Shown here one piece after another: positions 33,831 through 43,114 of a stretch of DNA of 45,855 nucleotides. Both the position numbers and the translations under genes were made by a program. Location of the stretch: contig CALLPT010000293.1 of the NCBI GenBank assembly GCA_938015575.1, positions 1 through 45,855 of the forward strand, written 5' to 3'. Source of the DNA: an uncultured Acidimicrobiales bacterium (lineage in GTDB: Bacteria > Actinomycetota > Acidimicrobiia > Acidimicrobiales > UBA10347). The stretch's first letter is position 1. The number at the start of each line of letters is the position of its first letter. The notes below the pieces were generated by a model that did no database searches, had not been told where the DNA came from, and worked only from the letters and a program-made list of their open reading frames with translations.

Positions 33831-36248
33831 ATGACTGCAGACGATCGCCCAGACGCCGACAAGAGCGGCCACTTCTATCTGGGACGAAACGGCGAGAACG
33901 ACAACATCCAGTACGAGGCTGGCGACCTGACCACCCATGGGGTGATCGTCGGCATGACAGGTTCGGGCAAGACCGGCCTGGGTGTGATCATGCTCGAAGA
34001 GGCCCTGCTCGAAGGGATCCCGACGCTGATCATCGATCCCAAGGGCGACATGGGCAACCTCATGCTCACCTTCCCAGACCTGGCTGCATCGGACTTCGCT
34101 CCTTGGGTCGACGACGAGACCGACCCGGCGGCCACTGCCGACCTGTGGCGTTCCGGTTTGGAGCGCAGCGGCATCGGTCCTGAACGCATCGGGCGCCTTC
34201 GCTCCGGCTGCGACATGACCATCTATACGCCCGGCTCGGCGGCCGGCGTGCCGCTCAACGTCATCGGTTCGATGTCGGCACCGGGTCGCAGTGACGGCGA
34301 CGACGACATCACCTTCGCCGAGACCAAGCACGACGAGATCGAGGGCCTGGTCAGTTCACTGCTGGGCCTGATCGGTGTGAACAGCGACCCGCTGAGCGGG
34401 CGCGAGCACATCTTGTTGGCGAACATCGTCGACCATTACTGGACTCGCGGCCAGGCGCTGAGCATCGAGTCGCTCATCGAGAACGTCATGCAGCCACCGT
34501 TCCGCAAGCTCGGTGTCATGCAACTCGACACGCTCTTCCCCGAGGGCGACCGCACCAAGCTCGCCATGAAACTCAACGGCCTGGCCGCCTCGCCGGCCTT
34601 CGCTGCCTGGAGCCAGGGCGTTCCCCTCGACATCGACTCGATGCTCTTCCAAGCCAACGGCGACCCGAGAGCTGCGATCGTCAACATCGCTCACTTGGCC
34701 GACGAGGAACGCCAGTTCGTGGTCACGCTGCTGCTGTCCAAGGTCGTCACGTGGATGCGGAGCCAACCGGGCAGCTCGGATCTGCGTGTCCTCGTGTACA
34801 TGGACGAGGTGTACGGCTACTGCCCCCCGACGGCGATGCCGCCATCGAAGAAGCCGATCCTGACGATCCTGAAGCAGGCGCGAGCTTTTGGTGTCGGCCT
34901 GGTGCTGTCGACGCAGAACCCGGTCGACATCGACTACAAGGCAATCTCCAATGCGGGCACCTGGATGATCGGTCGCCTCCAGACCGAACGCGACAAGGCA
35001 CGCCTGCTCGAAGGCATGCAACGAAGCGACGGCGGGGCCGACGTCAAGGAGCTCGACGAGACGATCTCGAGCCTCGACAAGCGCGAGTTCGTCTTGCACT
35101 CGACCCGATCCAACCCCCAGACCTTCTCAACCCGATGGGCCATGTCCTATCTGCCGGGACCGTTGAGCCGTCACCAGATCACGGAACTGATGCAGGATCG
35201 GGACAAGACGGCGACGGCCGCTACGTCCGCCGCGACGTCGCCAACCGCGGCTGCGCCCGCCACGGCACCGGCCGATGACACCCCCGAACTCGCCGAAGAC
35301 GAGAGCACGCTGGCCCCGTCGGTGGCCAAGGGCATCCCGGTCCGCTATGTGCGTCGTGACGCTCCCTGGGCCGACGAAGCCGGCCTGGATCTGACCAGCA
35401 CCCGTCTTGTGCCGGCGCTGGCTGTGCGCATGAACCTGCTCTACGACGACACCAAGGCCGATCTTCGGCACGAGGCCGAGTGGGAAGCCATCGTGCGCAT
35501 CGACGACGATCGCATCGACCCCGACGACGCGACGATCGTCGACTTCGACGATCGCGACTTCACCGATGTCGCGCCCGACGGCGCCGTCTACGTGCTGCCC
35601 CAGGCCGACATCGACTCGTCTCCGCTGTTCACCCAGGCCAAGGCTGCGTTCAAGGACCATCTGTACCGCAGCGAGATGCTTCAGCTCTTCGCCAACAAGG
35701 AACTCGACCTGTACAGCCGCATCGGTGAAACCGAAGAAGAGTTCACGCGTCGATGCGAGCGCTACGCCGACGAGCTGGCCGACGAAGAACTCGAAGATCT
35801 CATGAAGCGCCGCGAGCGCGACGTCGAGAAGCAGCGTGACATGTTGCGCAAACTCGAGCTCGAGGTCGAGCAGCTCGAAGACCAGAAAGAAGACGCCAGC
35901 CGCGACGCCAAGCTCGGCATGCTGATGGATGTCGGCGAGACGGTGTTCGGGATGCTTGGAGGCGGCCGTCGCCGCCGCCGCTCCGTCGCTGCGGCTGGCC
36001 GTCGCGTGCTTCGTGATAGCCGGTCGGGCAGTCGCCTCGATCAGCGGCTCGAAGCAAAAGACCAGAAGCTCTCCGAAGAAGAAGAGGACCTGGCCGAGAT
36101 GCTCGAAGAGTTCGAGTCCAAGGAACTCGAGATCGTCTCCGAGTTCAACGACAAAGCCCAAGAGGTCGAGTCGTTCGAGGTCGGGCTAGAAAAGGCCGAC
36201 ATCTCTATCGACGACATCATGCTCGTCTGGCTGCCCTCCATCACCTGA
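33831..36248 (+). CDS. HerA/VirB4-like P-loop ATPase with C-terminal coiled coil
   Basis: Walker A GMTGSGKTGLG, IIDPKGDMGNL, VYMDEVYGYCPP Walker B, STQNPVDIDYKAISNAGTW; Lys/Glu coiled coil near the C-terminus; RBS GAGGAGG. Confidence 0.9.
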   Translation: MTADDRPDADKSGHFYLGRNGENDNIQYEAGDLTTHGVIVGMTGSGKTGLGVIMLEEALLEGIPTLIIDPKGDMGNLMLTFPDLAASDFAPWVDDETDPAATADLWRSGLERSGIGPERIGRLRSGCDMTIYTPGSAAGVPLNVIGSMSAPGRSDGDDDITFAETKHDEIEGLVSSLLGLIGVNSDPLSGREHILLANIVDHYWTRGQALSIESLIENVMQPPFRKLGVMQLDTLFPEGDRTKLAMKLNGLAASPAFAAWSQGVPLDIDSMLFQANGDPRAAIVNIAHLADEERQFVVTLLLSKVVTWMRSQPGSSDLRVLVYMDEVYGYCPPTAMPPSKKPILTILKQARAFGVGLVLSTQNPVDIDYKAISNAGTWMIGRLQTERDKARLLEGMQRSDGGADVKELDETISSLDKREFVLHSTRSNPQTFSTRWAMSYLPGPLSRHQITELMQDRDKTATAATSAATSPTAAAPATAPADDTPELAEDESTLAPSVAKGIPVRYVRRDAPWADEAGLDLTSTRLVPALAVRMNLLYDDTKADLRHEAEWEAIVRIDDDRIDPDDATIVDFDDRDFTDVAPDGAVYVLPQADIDSSPLFTQAKAAFKDHLYRSEMLQLFANKELDLYSRIGETEEEFTRRCERYADELADEELEDLMKRRERDVEKQRDMLRKLELEVEQLEDQKEDASRDAKLGMLMDVGETVFGMLGGGRRRRRSVAAAGRRVLRDSRSGSRLDQRLEAKDQKLSEEEEDLAEMLEEFESKELEIVSEFNDKAQEVESFEVGLEKADISIDDIMLVWLPSIT

Positions 36249-37843: not shown

Positions 37844-37902
37844 GTGAAACGGGTTAGGTCCGACCCCGCTGAAACACCGGGGTCGGACCTGAAGCGTTTC
37901 AC
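37844..37902. repeat. large composite palindrome (8-bp outer, 13-bp inner stem); REP-like or terminator
   Basis: GTGAAACG 37844-37851 / CGTTTCAC 37895-37902; AGGTCCGACCCCG 37856-37868 / CGGGGTCGGACCT 37878-37890. Confidence 0.85.
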
Positions 37903-37909
37903 TGCCCCG

Positions 37910-38428
37910 CTAGGCCGTTGGGTCGACCTTGACCAATTCACTCAGCGCAATCTTGCCGGTGCGCTGCATCTCGACGATGCCGTAGCGGCCGAGCAGCGCC
38001 TCGAAATCGTCGAGCCGACGAGGCGAACCCGCAACCGACACCATGAGCTCCTTGAAGCCGACGTTGAGCACCTGGGCATCGAAGATCTGCACGAGGTCGA
38101 TGATCTCGCGACGCGACTCTGGCGTTGCCGCGGCAACCGTGACCATGAGCAGTTCTCGTTCGACCGAGGTAGCCGGGTCCAGCTCGCGAATCTCGAGCAC
38201 GTTCACCAGCTTGTCGAGCTGTTTCACGACCTGGTCGATCGAGGTCGAGCTCACGTCGACGACGATGGTGATCCGGCTGAATCGTTCGTCGTCGGTTGGT
38301 GCGACGGCGAGCGACTCGATGTTGAAGCCGCGGCGAGAGAACAGACCGGCGATGCGGGCAAGCACGCCGGACTTGTTCTCGACCAGAACGACGATGGTAT
38401 GGAGGTCGCAGTTCTCTGGAGCGCTCAT
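37910..38428 (-). CDS. ilvN: acetolactate synthase small (regulatory) subunit
   Basis: HTIVVLVENKSGVLARIAGLFSRRGFNIESLAVAPTDD ACT domain; adjacent to ilvB. Confidence 0.96.
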   Translation of the reverse strand: MSAPENCDLHTIVVLVENKSGVLARIAGLFSRRGFNIESLAVAPTDDERFSRITIVVDVSSTSIDQVVKQLDKLVNVLEIRELDPATSVERELLMVTVAAATPESRREIIDLVQIFDAQVLNVGFKELMVSVAGSPRRLDDFEALLGRYGIVEMQRTGKIALSELVKVDPTA

Positions 38429-38430
38429 GA

Positions 38431-40152
38431 TCAGCCCTCTCGCTGTGATGGGTCAACGAGCAGTTCGCTATTGCTCGCGCCGGCCGGGACCATCGGATAC
38501 ACCTTTTCGTCTTCGAGGGTCCGGAAGTCAACAACGACCGGTCGATCGTCGACCTCGTTGGCCTTTTGAATGGTGGCCTCGACCTCTTCGGGCGAGTCGA
38601 CGCGGAACCCAACGCAGCCCATGGACTCGGCCATCATCTTGAAGTCGGGCAGCGTGTCCAGGTGGGTCTCGCTGTAACGCTCGTCGTAGAACAGCTCCTG
38701 CCATTGGCGGACCATGCCCAGGTAGCTGTTGTTGAGGATCGCGATCTTGACCGGGATCTTCTCGAGCGCTGCGGTGGTCAGTTCCTGACAGGTCATCTGG
38801 AAGCAGCCGTCGCCGTCGACGGCCCAGACCATGCGATCGGGCTGACCGACCTGGGCGCCGATCGCTGCGGGAACGGCGTAACCCATCGTGCCCAGACCGC
38901 CGGAGTTGATCCAGGTGTACGGGTGGTTGAACTTCCAATACTGGCTGGCCCACATCTGGTGCTGGCCCACACCGGCGACCACGATCGTGTCATCGGGTGT
39001 GTTGTCGCGCAGCTGCTCGACGACTGCCTGCGGCTTCAGCCGCTCGCCAGGCTGGTGTTCTTCGTAGGTCAGCGGGTACTTCTCTTGCCAGCCGCTCAAC
39101 GTGGTCCGCCACGCGGTGCGATCAGGCTGTGCCTCGGCCCCACCGAGCGAACGAATCGCGCCGTTGAGCCCGGCAATGATCGACTTGGCATCGCCGGCGA
39201 TCGGGACGTGCGCGTGGCGCACCTTGCCGAGCTCGGCCGGGTCGATGTCGACGTGAATGACCTTGGCGTCGGGCGCGAACGAGCCGCGATCGCCGGTGAC
39301 ACGGTCGTCGAATCGAGAACCGAGTGCGATCAACAGGTCGGCTTCTTGCATCGCCATGACGGCGGTGTAGTTGCCGTGCATGCCAGGCATGCCCAAGCAG
39401 AGCTCGTGATCGTCGGGGAAGCCTCCCCGGTTCATCAGGGTCGTGACAACGGGGATACCGGTCATCTCGGCGAGCTCGAGGAGCACCTCGGCGGCGCGCG
39501 AGCGCAAGATGCCGCCGCCGCTGTAGATCACCGGACGCTCGGCTTCGCAGATCATGCGGGCGGCCTGGGCGATTGCGGCCGGGTCGCCGTCCATCACCGG
39601 GTTGTAGCCGGGCAGATCGTGACCGGTCGGCGTGTACCACTCGAGCTCGGCGCTCGGAAGCACGAGGTCCTTGGGAATGTCGACGAGCACCGGACCGGGT
39701 CGACCCGTGGTCGCCAGATGGAAGGCGTCGTGGATGATCTGGGGGATGTCGTTGACATCGGTGACGAGGTAGTTGTGCTTCGTCGCCGACATCGTGATAC
39801 CGGTCGTGTCGGCTTCCTGGAACGCATCGGTGCCGATCGCGGGAAGTGCGACCTGGCCGGTGATGCACACCATGGGGATCGAATCCATGTAGGCGTCGAG
39901 CAACGGCGTGACCATGTTGGTCGCCGCGGGGCCGCTCGTCACGACAGCAACACCTGGACGGCCCGTGGCGTGGGCGTAGCCCGATGCCATGTGGCCGGCC
40001 CCTTGCTCATGGCGTACGAGGATGTGCCGGATGCTGGACTCGATCAGCGGGTCGTATACCGGCAGGATCGCACCACCAGGCATGCCGAATACGGTGTCGA
40101 CTCCCTCATGCTCGAGGGCTTTAAGAACCGCTTGGGCTCCATTCAACTGCAT
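38431..40152 (-). CDS. ilvB: acetolactate synthase large subunit
   Basis: MQLNGAQAVLKALEHEGVDTVFGMPGGAILPVYDPL; GDGCFQMTCQELTTA ThDP motif; DRPVVVDFR. Confidence 0.97.
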   Translation of the reverse strand: MQLNGAQAVLKALEHEGVDTVFGMPGGAILPVYDPLIESSIRHILVRHEQGAGHMASGYAHATGRPGVAVVTSGPAATNMVTPLLDAYMDSIPMVCITGQVALPAIGTDAFQEADTTGITMSATKHNYLVTDVNDIPQIIHDAFHLATTGRPGPVLVDIPKDLVLPSAELEWYTPTGHDLPGYNPVMDGDPAAIAQAARMICEAERPVIYSGGGILRSRAAEVLLELAEMTGIPVVTTLMNRGGFPDDHELCLGMPGMHGNYTAVMAMQEADLLIALGSRFDDRVTGDRGSFAPDAKVIHVDIDPAELGKVRHAHVPIAGDAKSIIAGLNGAIRSLGGAEAQPDRTAWRTTLSGWQEKYPLTYEEHQPGERLKPQAVVEQLRDNTPDDTIVVAGVGQHQMWASQYWKFNHPYTWINSGGLGTMGYAVPAAIGAQVGQPDRMVWAVDGDGCFQMTCQELTTAALEKIPVKIAILNNSYLGMVRQWQELFYDERYSETHLDTLPDFKMMAESMGCVGFRVDSPEEVEATIQKANEVDDRPVVVDFRTLEDEKVYPMVPAGASNSELLVDPSQREG

Positions 40153-40246
40153 GGTTCACCTACCTGGCCGGTTGGACAGCTTCTCAGTCTGGGGTGTCAT
40201 TGGCGGAATCGCTTCGTTCTGGCGAAAGTTGGCTCGAAAACTGAAA

Positions 40247-40268
40247 CGACCTCCCGGGTGGGAGGTCG
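40247..40268 (-). terminator. ilvBN attenuator terminator hairpin
   Basis: Minus strand CGACCTCCC-accc-GGGAGGTCG followed by TTTCAGTTTTC. Confidence 0.82.
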
Positions 40269-40294
40269 AACGCGCGCAGGGGATGGCCTGCGCG

Positions 40295-40336
40295 CTACAC
40301 AAGTACGAGTACGTCGAGAACGAAGCGATGCGACAT
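40295..40336 (-). CDS. ilvBN leader peptide MSHRFVLDVLVLV
   Basis: atgtcgcatcgcttcgttctcgacgtactcgtacttgtgtag: 7 of 13 residues Val/Leu; directly followed by hairpins and upstream of ilvB. Confidence 0.82.
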   Translation of the reverse strand: MSHRFVLDVLVLV

Positions 40337-40892
40337 GACTGAGCAAGTATGCCAAGACCAGCGCGCTGGTGTCTACCCAGGATCGTTTGATCCTCCGACG
40401 ATCGCCCATTTGGCGATCGCGGTCATGGCTCGACGGGCAGCGGCCTTGGACCGCGTTGACCTCGTCGTGAGCCGCCAGGCGTTGGCCAAGGAAGACGCGG
40501 ACAATGCGCCCTTTGACCTGCGGCTCCAGGTGATCGAAGCCAGCATCGCTCATGCGCCGTGGATGCAGGTCGTGGTGACCGAGGATCAGCTCATCGCTGA
40601 TATCGCCCAGGGCTACGACGCCGTCATCCTCGGTTCCGACAAATGGGCACAGGTTGTGGATCCTGCGTTCTATGACGATGAAGCAGCTCGCGACGCAGCG
40701 CTCGCTCGGCTTCCCCAGGTCGTTGGTCCGAACCGACCCGACACTCCCCCGCTGCCCGAGTCCGCGATGTTACTCGAGCTGCCGGCCAGGCTGCAGCTGG
40801 TGTCCTCGACCGAAGCGCGAACCTCGCGACCGGACTGGATGACACCCCCGGCCCGCAAGACGGCAGAGGCCAAGAACCTCTGGGGCCTCTGA
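40335..40892 (+). CDS. NadD/CoaD-like nucleotidyltransferase family protein
   Basis: AGVYPGSFDPPTIAHLAIAVMARR (GSFDPxxxxH nucleotidyltransferase motif), C-terminal SSTEARTS. Confidence 0.82.
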   Translation: MTEQVCQDQRAGVYPGSFDPPTIAHLAIAVMARRAAALDRVDLVVSRQALAKEDADNAPFDLRLQVIEASIAHAPWMQVVVTEDQLIADIAQGYDAVILGSDKWAQVVDPAFYDDEAARDAALARLPQVVGPNRPDTPPLPESAMLLELPARLQLVSSTEARTSRPDWMTPPARKTAEAKNLWGL

Positions 40893-40899
40893 GCCCTGC

Positions 40900-40977
40900 C
40901 GTTCTCACCGACTCCAGACCCGGAATCCGGGTGCCAGATCGGTGAGAACGCGACAGCGGGTGCCAGATCGGTGAGAA
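40900..40977. repeat. palindrome plus direct repeat element (21-bp CGGGTGCCAGATCGGTGAGAA twice, with an inverted arm)
   Basis: Direct copies 40928-40948 and 40957-40977; inverted arm CGTTCTCACCGA 40900-40911 pairs with 40939-40950; inner CCCGGA/TCCGGG. Confidence 0.85.
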
Positions 40978-40989
40978 TGCCGGATTTGG

Positions 40990-41145
40990 TCAAGCGAAGA
41001 GGGCAAGCGCGGCGATGACGAGCACGATGCCGGCGATCAGAGCAAGGGCGGCGATCCCGTTCGCTCGCCGAGTGCGCCATTGGTGCGAGCGTCGGTGCAC
41101 TGACGGATAGCGGTCTACCGCGCTCGGTCCCTCGACGTCGTCCAT
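40990..41145 (-). CDS. small single-TM membrane protein (51 aa)
   Basis: MDDVEGPSAVDRYPSVHRRSHQWRTRRANGIAALALIAGIVLVIAALALFA*: basic stretch then TM; below ORF-track cutoff. Confidence 0.5.
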   Translation of the reverse strand: MDDVEGPSAVDRYPSVHRRSHQWRTRRANGIAALALIAGIVLVIAALALFA

Positions 41146-41172
41146 GACCGGGAACCTAGTACGTTGTTGCTT

Positions 41173-41859
41173 ATGGGGCTGCTGAGAAAGTCACCGGAAA
41201 CGGGCGTCATCTGCGAAGCGCCGCGCATCGAGGTGCACGATGCGTTTGCCACGCCCGAGGAATGCGCCCACATCATCGAGCTTGCCCGCAACAACATGGA
41301 CTCGGCGTCGATCATCAACGCCGAGGGTGAGAGCGTCGAAAACAACCTGCGCCGCACCGCCGACATCGGCTGGGTGTACACCGACGAAACGGCCATCGTC
41401 GGCAAGCTCGTCGGCCGGGTCGCCGAGCTCGCGGGCATGCCAGCCAAGAACTGCGAACGCATCCAGGTCGTCCACTACGACGTGGGCGGGAAGTACACGC
41501 CGCACTTGGACACGTTCAAGCCCGACCCGTCGAATGCGCACTACCGGCGCTCAGGTCAACGGCTCAAAACCGGGCTGCTCTATCTGCACGAACCCGGCAA
41601 GGGAGGATCGACGAGCTTCCCCAAGGCCAAGGCCAAAGTGAAGCCCAAGGTCGGCCGTCTTGCCCTCTTCGAGCTGGTGCATCCCGGTACGACCGAACCG
41701 AATCTCGACTCGGTGCATGCCGGAACCCCGGTGTGGAGCGGCGAGAAATGGGCGTGCAACTTCTGGTTCTGCGAACGCAGTGTCAAGGGCAACAGCAAGA
41801 AGCACGCGCCCAAACCGAAACCGACCGCGTCGGCCAAACGCAAGCGGAAGAAGCGCTGA
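41173..41859 (+). CDS. prolyl 4-hydroxylase-like 2-oxoglutarate/Fe(II) dioxygenase with basic C-terminal tail
   Basis: QVVHYDVGGKYTPHLDTF (HxD), TGLLYLHEPGKGGSTSFP, HAGTPVWSGEKWACNFWF (distal H and K); tail KHAPKPKPTASAKRKRKKR. Confidence 0.87.
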   Translation: MGLLRKSPETGVICEAPRIEVHDAFATPEECAHIIELARNNMDSASIINAEGESVENNLRRTADIGWVYTDETAIVGKLVGRVAELAGMPAKNCERIQVVHYDVGGKYTPHLDTFKPDPSNAHYRRSGQRLKTGLLYLHEPGKGGSTSFPKAKAKVKPKVGRLALFELVHPGTTEPNLDSVHAGTPVWSGEKWACNFWFCERSVKGNSKKHAPKPKPTASAKRKRKKR

Positions 41860-41923
41860 GAACTCACACAACATTTCGCCCTAGCGTGGCAGCGGTCACA
41901 ACGACCTTCTAAGGTGTGCGGCC

Positions 41924-43114
41924 ATGTCGCATGTGACGTTCAGCTCGGTGGGTAAGCGGTATCCGAACGGTTTCGAAGCCGTCAAGGATCTCAATCTGGA
42001 AATCGAACAAGGCGAGTTCCTCGTCATGGTCGGTCCGTCCGGTTGTGGCAAGTCGACCACATTGCGGATGATCGCCGGTCTCGAAGAGATCACGGGCGGC
42101 GAGATCGCGATCGGCGACCGGGTCGTCAACGACCTCCCGCCCAAGGATCGCGACATCGCGATGGTGTTCCAGAACTACGCGCTCTATCCCCACATGACGG
42201 TGTTCGACAACATCGCTTTTGCCCTGAAGCTGCAGAAGATGCCCAAGAGCGAGATCCGTGAGCGCGTCGAAAACGCCGCTCGCATTTTGGAACTGAACGA
42301 ACTGCTCGATCGCAAGCCGGCCAAGCTCTCGGGCGGTCAACGCCAACGCGTCGCCATGGGCCGAGCCATCGTGCGTCGTCCCCAGCTGTTCTTGCTCGAC
42401 GAGCCGCTCTCGAACCTCGACGCCAAACTCCGCGTGCAGATGCGTAGCGAGATCACCGAATTGCAGCGCGAAGTCGGCGTGACCACGTTCTATGTCACCC
42501 ACGACCAGGTCGAGGCCATGACGATGGCGGACCGTGTCGCGGTCATCAACCGTGGCGTTCTGCAACAGGTTGCTCCGCCGCAGATCCTCTTCGACGAGCC
42601 AGAGAACCTCTTCGTCGCAGCGTTCATTGGCTCGCCGTCGATGAACCTCATGGAAGCGACATTGTCGCCAGACTCGGTCGGCGAAGAACTCAGCCTCAAC
42701 GTCGGCCCCAACCGGTTGCGGGTCACGTCAGAATTGCTGAGCAAGCGCCCGGCGCTTCGCAACTACTTCAATCGCACGGTCGTTGTCGGGCTGCGGCCCA
42801 AGGACTTCGAAGACGCGGCGATCGCCGATGCCGGGGCCCAAACCATCTCGGCCGAAGTCGCCAATATCGAGGCACTCGGCTACGAGGTGATCGCCTACTT
42901 CAACGTCGATGCCAAGCGTGTCGTCTCCGAAGACGCGCTCGACCTCGACGCCGACGAGGCGCTCGCGAGTGTCGGCGACCTCGACTCGACGATGGTCGCT
43001 GCTCGCTTCGATCCTCGCACTCGGGTACGCGTCGGCGACCAGATTCAGGTCGCCGTCGATGTGAACAACGCTCACTTCTTCGACCCGGACACGGGCCTGG
43101 CGATTCGAGACTGA
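41924..43114 (+). CDS. carbohydrate ABC transporter ATPase (UgpC/MsmK/MalK type)
   Basis: [90 protein letters not shown]-type regulatory C-terminus. Confidence 0.96.

Follow-up and report, generated by a model that had tools for sequence, protein, structure and literature searches.

A genus-restricted quasi-palindrome around an ordinary ilvB attenuator and overlapping divergent start codons in an Acidimicrobiales bacterium

In this work we have analysed the leader region of the ilvBN operon in a window of 45,855 nucleotides, the whole stretch of DNA considered here, from an uncultured Acidimicrobiales bacterium (contig CALLPT010000293.1). The operon lies on the minus strand, with the large subunit of acetolactate synthase encoded by ilvB (38431-40152, NCBIfam) and the small subunit by ilvN (37910-38428). 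Just past ilvN, at 37856-37890, 13 bp pair perfectly around a 9-nt loop to form a hairpin, possibly the terminator of the operon. In front of ilvB and on the same strand lies a reading frame for a leader peptide, MSHRFVLDVLVLV (40295-40336; ATG at 40336-40334, TAG at 40297-40295), which has aligned counterparts in related loci and whose pattern CTCGTAGTA-stop is conserved among them. Immediately 3' of its stop codon the fold and the related loci place a hairpin, H1 (40272-40295, minus strand), and beyond it stands the terminator CGACCTCCC-ACCC-GGGAGGTCG with a T tract (40237-40268, minus strand), whose stem at 40268-40247 is followed by TTTCAGTTTT. Two marks of an ilvB attenuator are present, namely an upstream reading frame rich in BCAA codons and an intrinsic terminator between leader and gene; judged from its sequence, the element in front of ilvB is an ordinary leader-peptide attenuator of a known kind, for which BCAA-dependent termination is predicted. 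The consensus fold of 72 attenuators gives the terminator only, no clear mutually exclusive antiterminator was found in a non-exhaustive search of alternative pairings, and no Rfam covariance model matched at E ≤ 1 within 38000-42500. The ilvB Shine-Dalgarno sequence (about 40161-40156) is outside the 13-bp stem discussed below and outside the predicted ilv stem. The sole promoter-like site found near the leader is TAGACA-18-CATACT (40346-40375, minus strand), the -10 of which ends 10 nt upstream of the leader ATG, and transcription would start 0-3 nt before that codon. Since 45 of 87 related loci have, under a strict pattern, a -10 of the CATACT/CAGACT type 12-17 nt upstream of the leader start, a spacing common order-wide, we infer that the ilv leader peptide is leaderless or nearly so, and the same spacing suggests leaderless ilv leader peptides across the Acidimicrobiales.

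On the plus strand a divergent gene (40335-40892) encodes a nadD/coaD-like nucleotidyltransferase, which passes the cut-off for Pfam PF01467 and falls short of those for nadD in NCBIfam. The ATG of this gene (40335-40337) and that of the leader (40336-40334) overlap within the tetranucleotide CATG (40334-40337). Each of the four species of the genus with this locus shows the exact overlap of start codons, which is clear in no other locus; in the nine loci elsewhere with such a divergent gene, that gene in most cases has its start 34-108 nt upstream of the leader, the choice of start being ambiguous in two. Just past the nadD-like gene, at 40893-40985, there is a dispersed, partly palindromic repeat; a search that included this segment gave about 65 matches in the same genome, many of those listed hitting this stretch, and many were also seen in the congener G005.

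The sequence-only reading had drawn attention to a perfect 13-bp inverted repeat which brackets the attenuator, and the arms are exactly as it described: ATCGCTTCGTTCT at 40208-40220 and its perfect reverse complement at 40317-40329, with a gap of 96 nt. In the ilv-strand RNA the 5' arm, 5'-AUCGCUUCGUUCU-3' (40317-40329, minus strand), lies by the start codon and runs from the second base of leader codon 3 to the second base of codon 7, and the 3' arm, 5'-AGAACGAAGCGAU-3' (40208-40220, minus strand), lies in the spacer beyond the terminator, 56-68 nt ahead of the ilvB ATG at 40152. Because the terminator is transcribed before the 3' arm, the stem takes no part in the decision to terminate. We rejected a dispersed repeat or the terminus of a mobile element, as the 13-mer occurs only three times in the 4.2-Mb genome, and also a pair of transcription-factor sites, as the letters of the arms differ from congener to congener. 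A second perfect 13-bp inverted repeat is present in the window, at 34460-34472 and 34634-34646 with a loop of 161 nt. Could the match then be a matter of chance? We counted mismatch-free 13-bp inverted repeats with 20-200 nt between their arms in the window and in 0.75 Mb of related loci. A dinucleotide Markov model gives 0.2 per window and the empirical rate in the related loci is 0.55 per window length, and two are found; the exact 13-mer alone is therefore, window-wide, not beyond chance.

However, the 13-nt arms belong, as its core, to a longer and imperfect inverted repeat, which in alignments extends over approximately 40164-40225 and 40314-40361. The leader-side arm of this longer repeat (40314-40361, assigned to neither strand) covers the leader start codon, the start of the divergent nadD-like gene and the ilv -10. 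Its counterpart in the spacer (40164-40225, likewise) is indicated by alignments, shuffles and the fold of the nadD strand. The complementarity of the leader-side arm exceeds that obtained with dinucleotide-shuffled spacers (p = 0.0004, and 0.0004-0.0006 for the own leader against the post-terminator spacer), where regions and scoring schemes were fixed after the sequences had been seen and several schemes were tried. The region folds with z = -5.8, part of which is due to the attenuator's own two hairpins, and the opposite (nadD) strand folds as a single long hairpin bearing two side hairpins.

For comparison we used ilvB loci taken from 80 GTDB contigs and 58 further genomes of the order. 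Across the Acidimicrobiales, most of these loci have a recognisable attenuator, with an LVV-type leader end, a hairpin and a GACCTCCC/GGGAGGTC terminator. The complementarity is another matter: outside the genus there is no excess of leader-spacer duplex energy (mean z +0.13, 71 loci), the long-range pairs number 11.4 observed against 11.1 with shuffled spacers (65 loci), and the own-pair fold residual averages +0.35 to +0.40 (65 loci, chimera matrix). With all three measures lacking an excess, we rejected order-wide conservation. A 12-bp match in locus L084 was set aside as low complexity, being formed by the terminator T tract (TTTTACTTTTCA) and an A-rich leader. The claim that the pairing adds a second control layer to the ilv attenuator is thus not established, for 65-71 loci outside the genus keep leader, hairpin and terminator without excess complementarity. 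Homologous leaders that keep the attenuator and lack complementary arms are just what had been named beforehand as speaking against the claim. As a conserved long-range RNA element of ilv leaders, the arms are kept in two of the three congeners (on the nadD strand) and show no excess in the 65 other loci.

Within the genus the picture is different, and any claim at this level rests on three congener loci besides the window, L003, L004 and L005 (IlvB 83-86% identical); the locus is absent from two further members, G002 and G005. The leaders and spacers of all three differ from those of the window, and matched arms of different sequence are found among them, so the expectation that homologous leaders would carry such arms holds in two of the three congeners and fails beyond the genus. 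The inverted repeat is accordingly restricted to the one genus whose two starts overlap. Complementarity to the own spacer exceeds that to shuffled ones in the window (p 0.0004), in L003 (p <0.0002) and in L004 (p 0.009); for L005 the DNA alignment of the arms gives p 0.7. In L003 the match AGAGATCATGACCGAACA with AGAGACCAGGACCGAACA, 16 of 18 bases, reaches six bases past the inferred ilv start site, and complementarity upstream of that site is formed by TGTTCGGTC/GACCGAACA. We also folded every combination of leader and spacer in a 69 × 69 chimera matrix from which the main effects of leader and spacer were removed. On the nadD strand, the own-pair residuals were -14.3 (z -4.6) for the window, -19.5 (z -6.3) for L003 and -20.6 (z -6.7) for L004, and weak for L005 (z -1.0); none of 4692 mismatched chimeras was as good as the true pair for L003, nor for L004. 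These two loci are partly non-independent, as the L003 spacer also fits the L004 leader. The signal in the congeners depends on some 30 nt of sequence that precede the leader ATG, and without that stretch it is seen for the own pair and weakly for L005 only. That the whole pattern is chance, with one 13-bp match singled out in 46 kb and coincidental weaker matches in the congeners, would agree with the two repeats found where 0.2-0.5 are expected, with the weakness of L005 and with the post hoc choice of regions and scoring. Yet L003 and L004 are independent of the choice of the window's own repeat and still reach 0/4692 on the nadD strand, and we regard chance as improbable.

Is the repeat, then, an RNA element? 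The read-through ilv mRNA certainly contains both arms, and its 5' end and leader start might pair with the post-terminator spacer, halting further translation of the leader or shielding the 5' end. The 5'-terminal GUC is predicted to pair with GAC of the spacer in all four congeners. In ilv RNA from the inferred start, the own leader and spacer fit each other best (z -3.8, empirical p 0.003), L005 follows (z -2.2, p 0.03), and identity is the best of 24 leader/spacer assignments. But L003 (z -0.8, p 0.18) and L004 (z -1.1, p 0.13) are unremarkable in this RNA, and the pairing is absent outside the genus. As the sequence-only reading had expected, the read-through RNA folded in silico includes the long-range stem. 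In the genus loci shuffled spacers already yield some 15 long-range pairs, leader and spacer being the sole free partners, and the mere presence of such a stem in a fold therefore proves nothing. What does not hold is the restriction of the pairing to ilv read-through transcripts. The signal is not specific to them because it continues upstream of the inferred start into codons that belong to the divergent gene, the nadD strand gives the stronger values and G-U wobbles show no strand bias (21 v 17, p 0.63). We therefore consider selection on the ilv mRNA quite unlikely.

The stem could instead be a selected element of the nadD-like mRNA. A transcript starting upstream of the spacer, and hence antisense to the attenuator, could fold so that the stem buries the start codon and controls translation. 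The nadD strand carries the strongest residuals, those of the chimera matrix above; the predicted stem on this strand covers the shared start-codon bases in L003, L004 and L005, and it is only the genus with overlapping starts that shows the repeat. Against this, we found no promoter on the nadD strand between ilvB and the nadD-like gene, so that the mRNA may not include the spacer, and G-U pairs are not in excess on that strand. This reading, too, we hold to be unlikely. A function of the RNA on either strand, taken jointly, is possible, only slightly less probable than the explanation favoured below. Could both transcripts take part in one switch? Here the nadD-like mRNA would have, at its start, an antisense partner in the terminated ilv leader RNA, and the read-through RNA would capture this antisense segment in cis with its spacer arm; the supply of BCAA would then set the translation of an NAD/CoA-type nucleotidyltransferase via the attenuator RNA. 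Such a joint switch seems to us very improbable.

The explanation that we favour, tentatively and at somewhat under an even chance, is that a genus-specific quasi-palindrome around an ordinary attenuator was created, and has been re-matched, mainly by inverted copying, i.e. template switching, a process described as creating and maintaining hairpins (PMC8794818). One arm spans the place where the divergent start codons of the ilv leader and the nadD-like gene overlap, and the other lies within the spacer between terminator and ilvB. In single-stranded DNA, H1 and the terminator would bring the arms together, template switching could take place between them, and inverted copying at the DNA level would have re-matched the arms separately in each lineage. 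Three observations favour it over selection on the ilv read-through RNA: the lack of G-U bias, since equal numbers of wobbles on both strands are expected of a DNA process, the course of the repeat through the ilv -10, and the extra length of the leader, which exceeds those of L003 and L004 by 9 nt adjoining the perfect arm. The 13-bp core of this species would fit a single event, in which spacer sequence was copied into the leader as an in-frame insertion of 9 nt (three codons). The heptamer GCATCGC is common to the own leader and the leader of L005, and the L004 spacer has CAACGACGC at the position of GAACGAAGC in the own spacer. Lineage-specific matched arms and the 9-nt difference in leader length, which a template switch might have left, come from a set of only four species. 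Both the cause and the direction of copying are inferred, and what counts against the model is that just these four species carry the locus, too few for ancestral reconstruction, that the matching in L005 is weak and that the 9-nt difference is of uncertain polarity. It would also be surprising if re-matching had been repeated in several lineages without some selection. The flanking inverted repeat is real and probably no part of the switch, although the long stem could fold in any transcript that holds both arms. A functional stem would link two divergent genes through the overlap of their start codons and would put a step after attenuation into a well-known switch. A mutational origin would make the repeat a natural case of arms re-matching across a 100-nt gap, in coding as well as noncoding DNA, and a caution that congruent complementarity among a few relatives does not have to reflect a regulatory RNA.

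The known part of the locus is the attenuator. Leader-peptide attenuators of ilvB have been described in Corynebacterium, Mycobacterium and Streptomyces (PMC1262725, PMC11857589, PMC10272879, PMC13236596), and the present one resembles them in its BCAA-rich leader, its intrinsic terminator and the near absence of a 5' UTR before the leader ATG; in C. glutamicum the +1 of ilvB is one nucleotide from the leader ATG (PMC11857589). The leader codons are of the LVV type, compared with LVVI in M. tuberculosis. In contrast to those systems, no clear alternative antiterminator and no match to an Rfam family were found here, and the attenuator is flanked by a genus-specific inverted repeat. This flanking quasi-palindrome is the new part. 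A related long-range pairing is already known from the LEU element of leuA, where the Leu codons of the leader pair with the Shine-Dalgarno box of leuA and a pseudoknot is conserved in most Actinobacteria (PMC1262725). As in that element, codons of a leader peptide here enter a long-range pairing with sequence near the structural gene; unlike it, the pairing of the core joins codons 3-7 to a site that precedes ilvB by 56-68 nt, and in one genus only. With the quasi-palindromes produced by template switching (PMC8794818) the repeat would share stretches of perfect complementarity altered jointly on the two arms and a putative insertion adjoining the inverted homology. It differs from them in that its arms stand 96 nt apart, with two hairpins between them.
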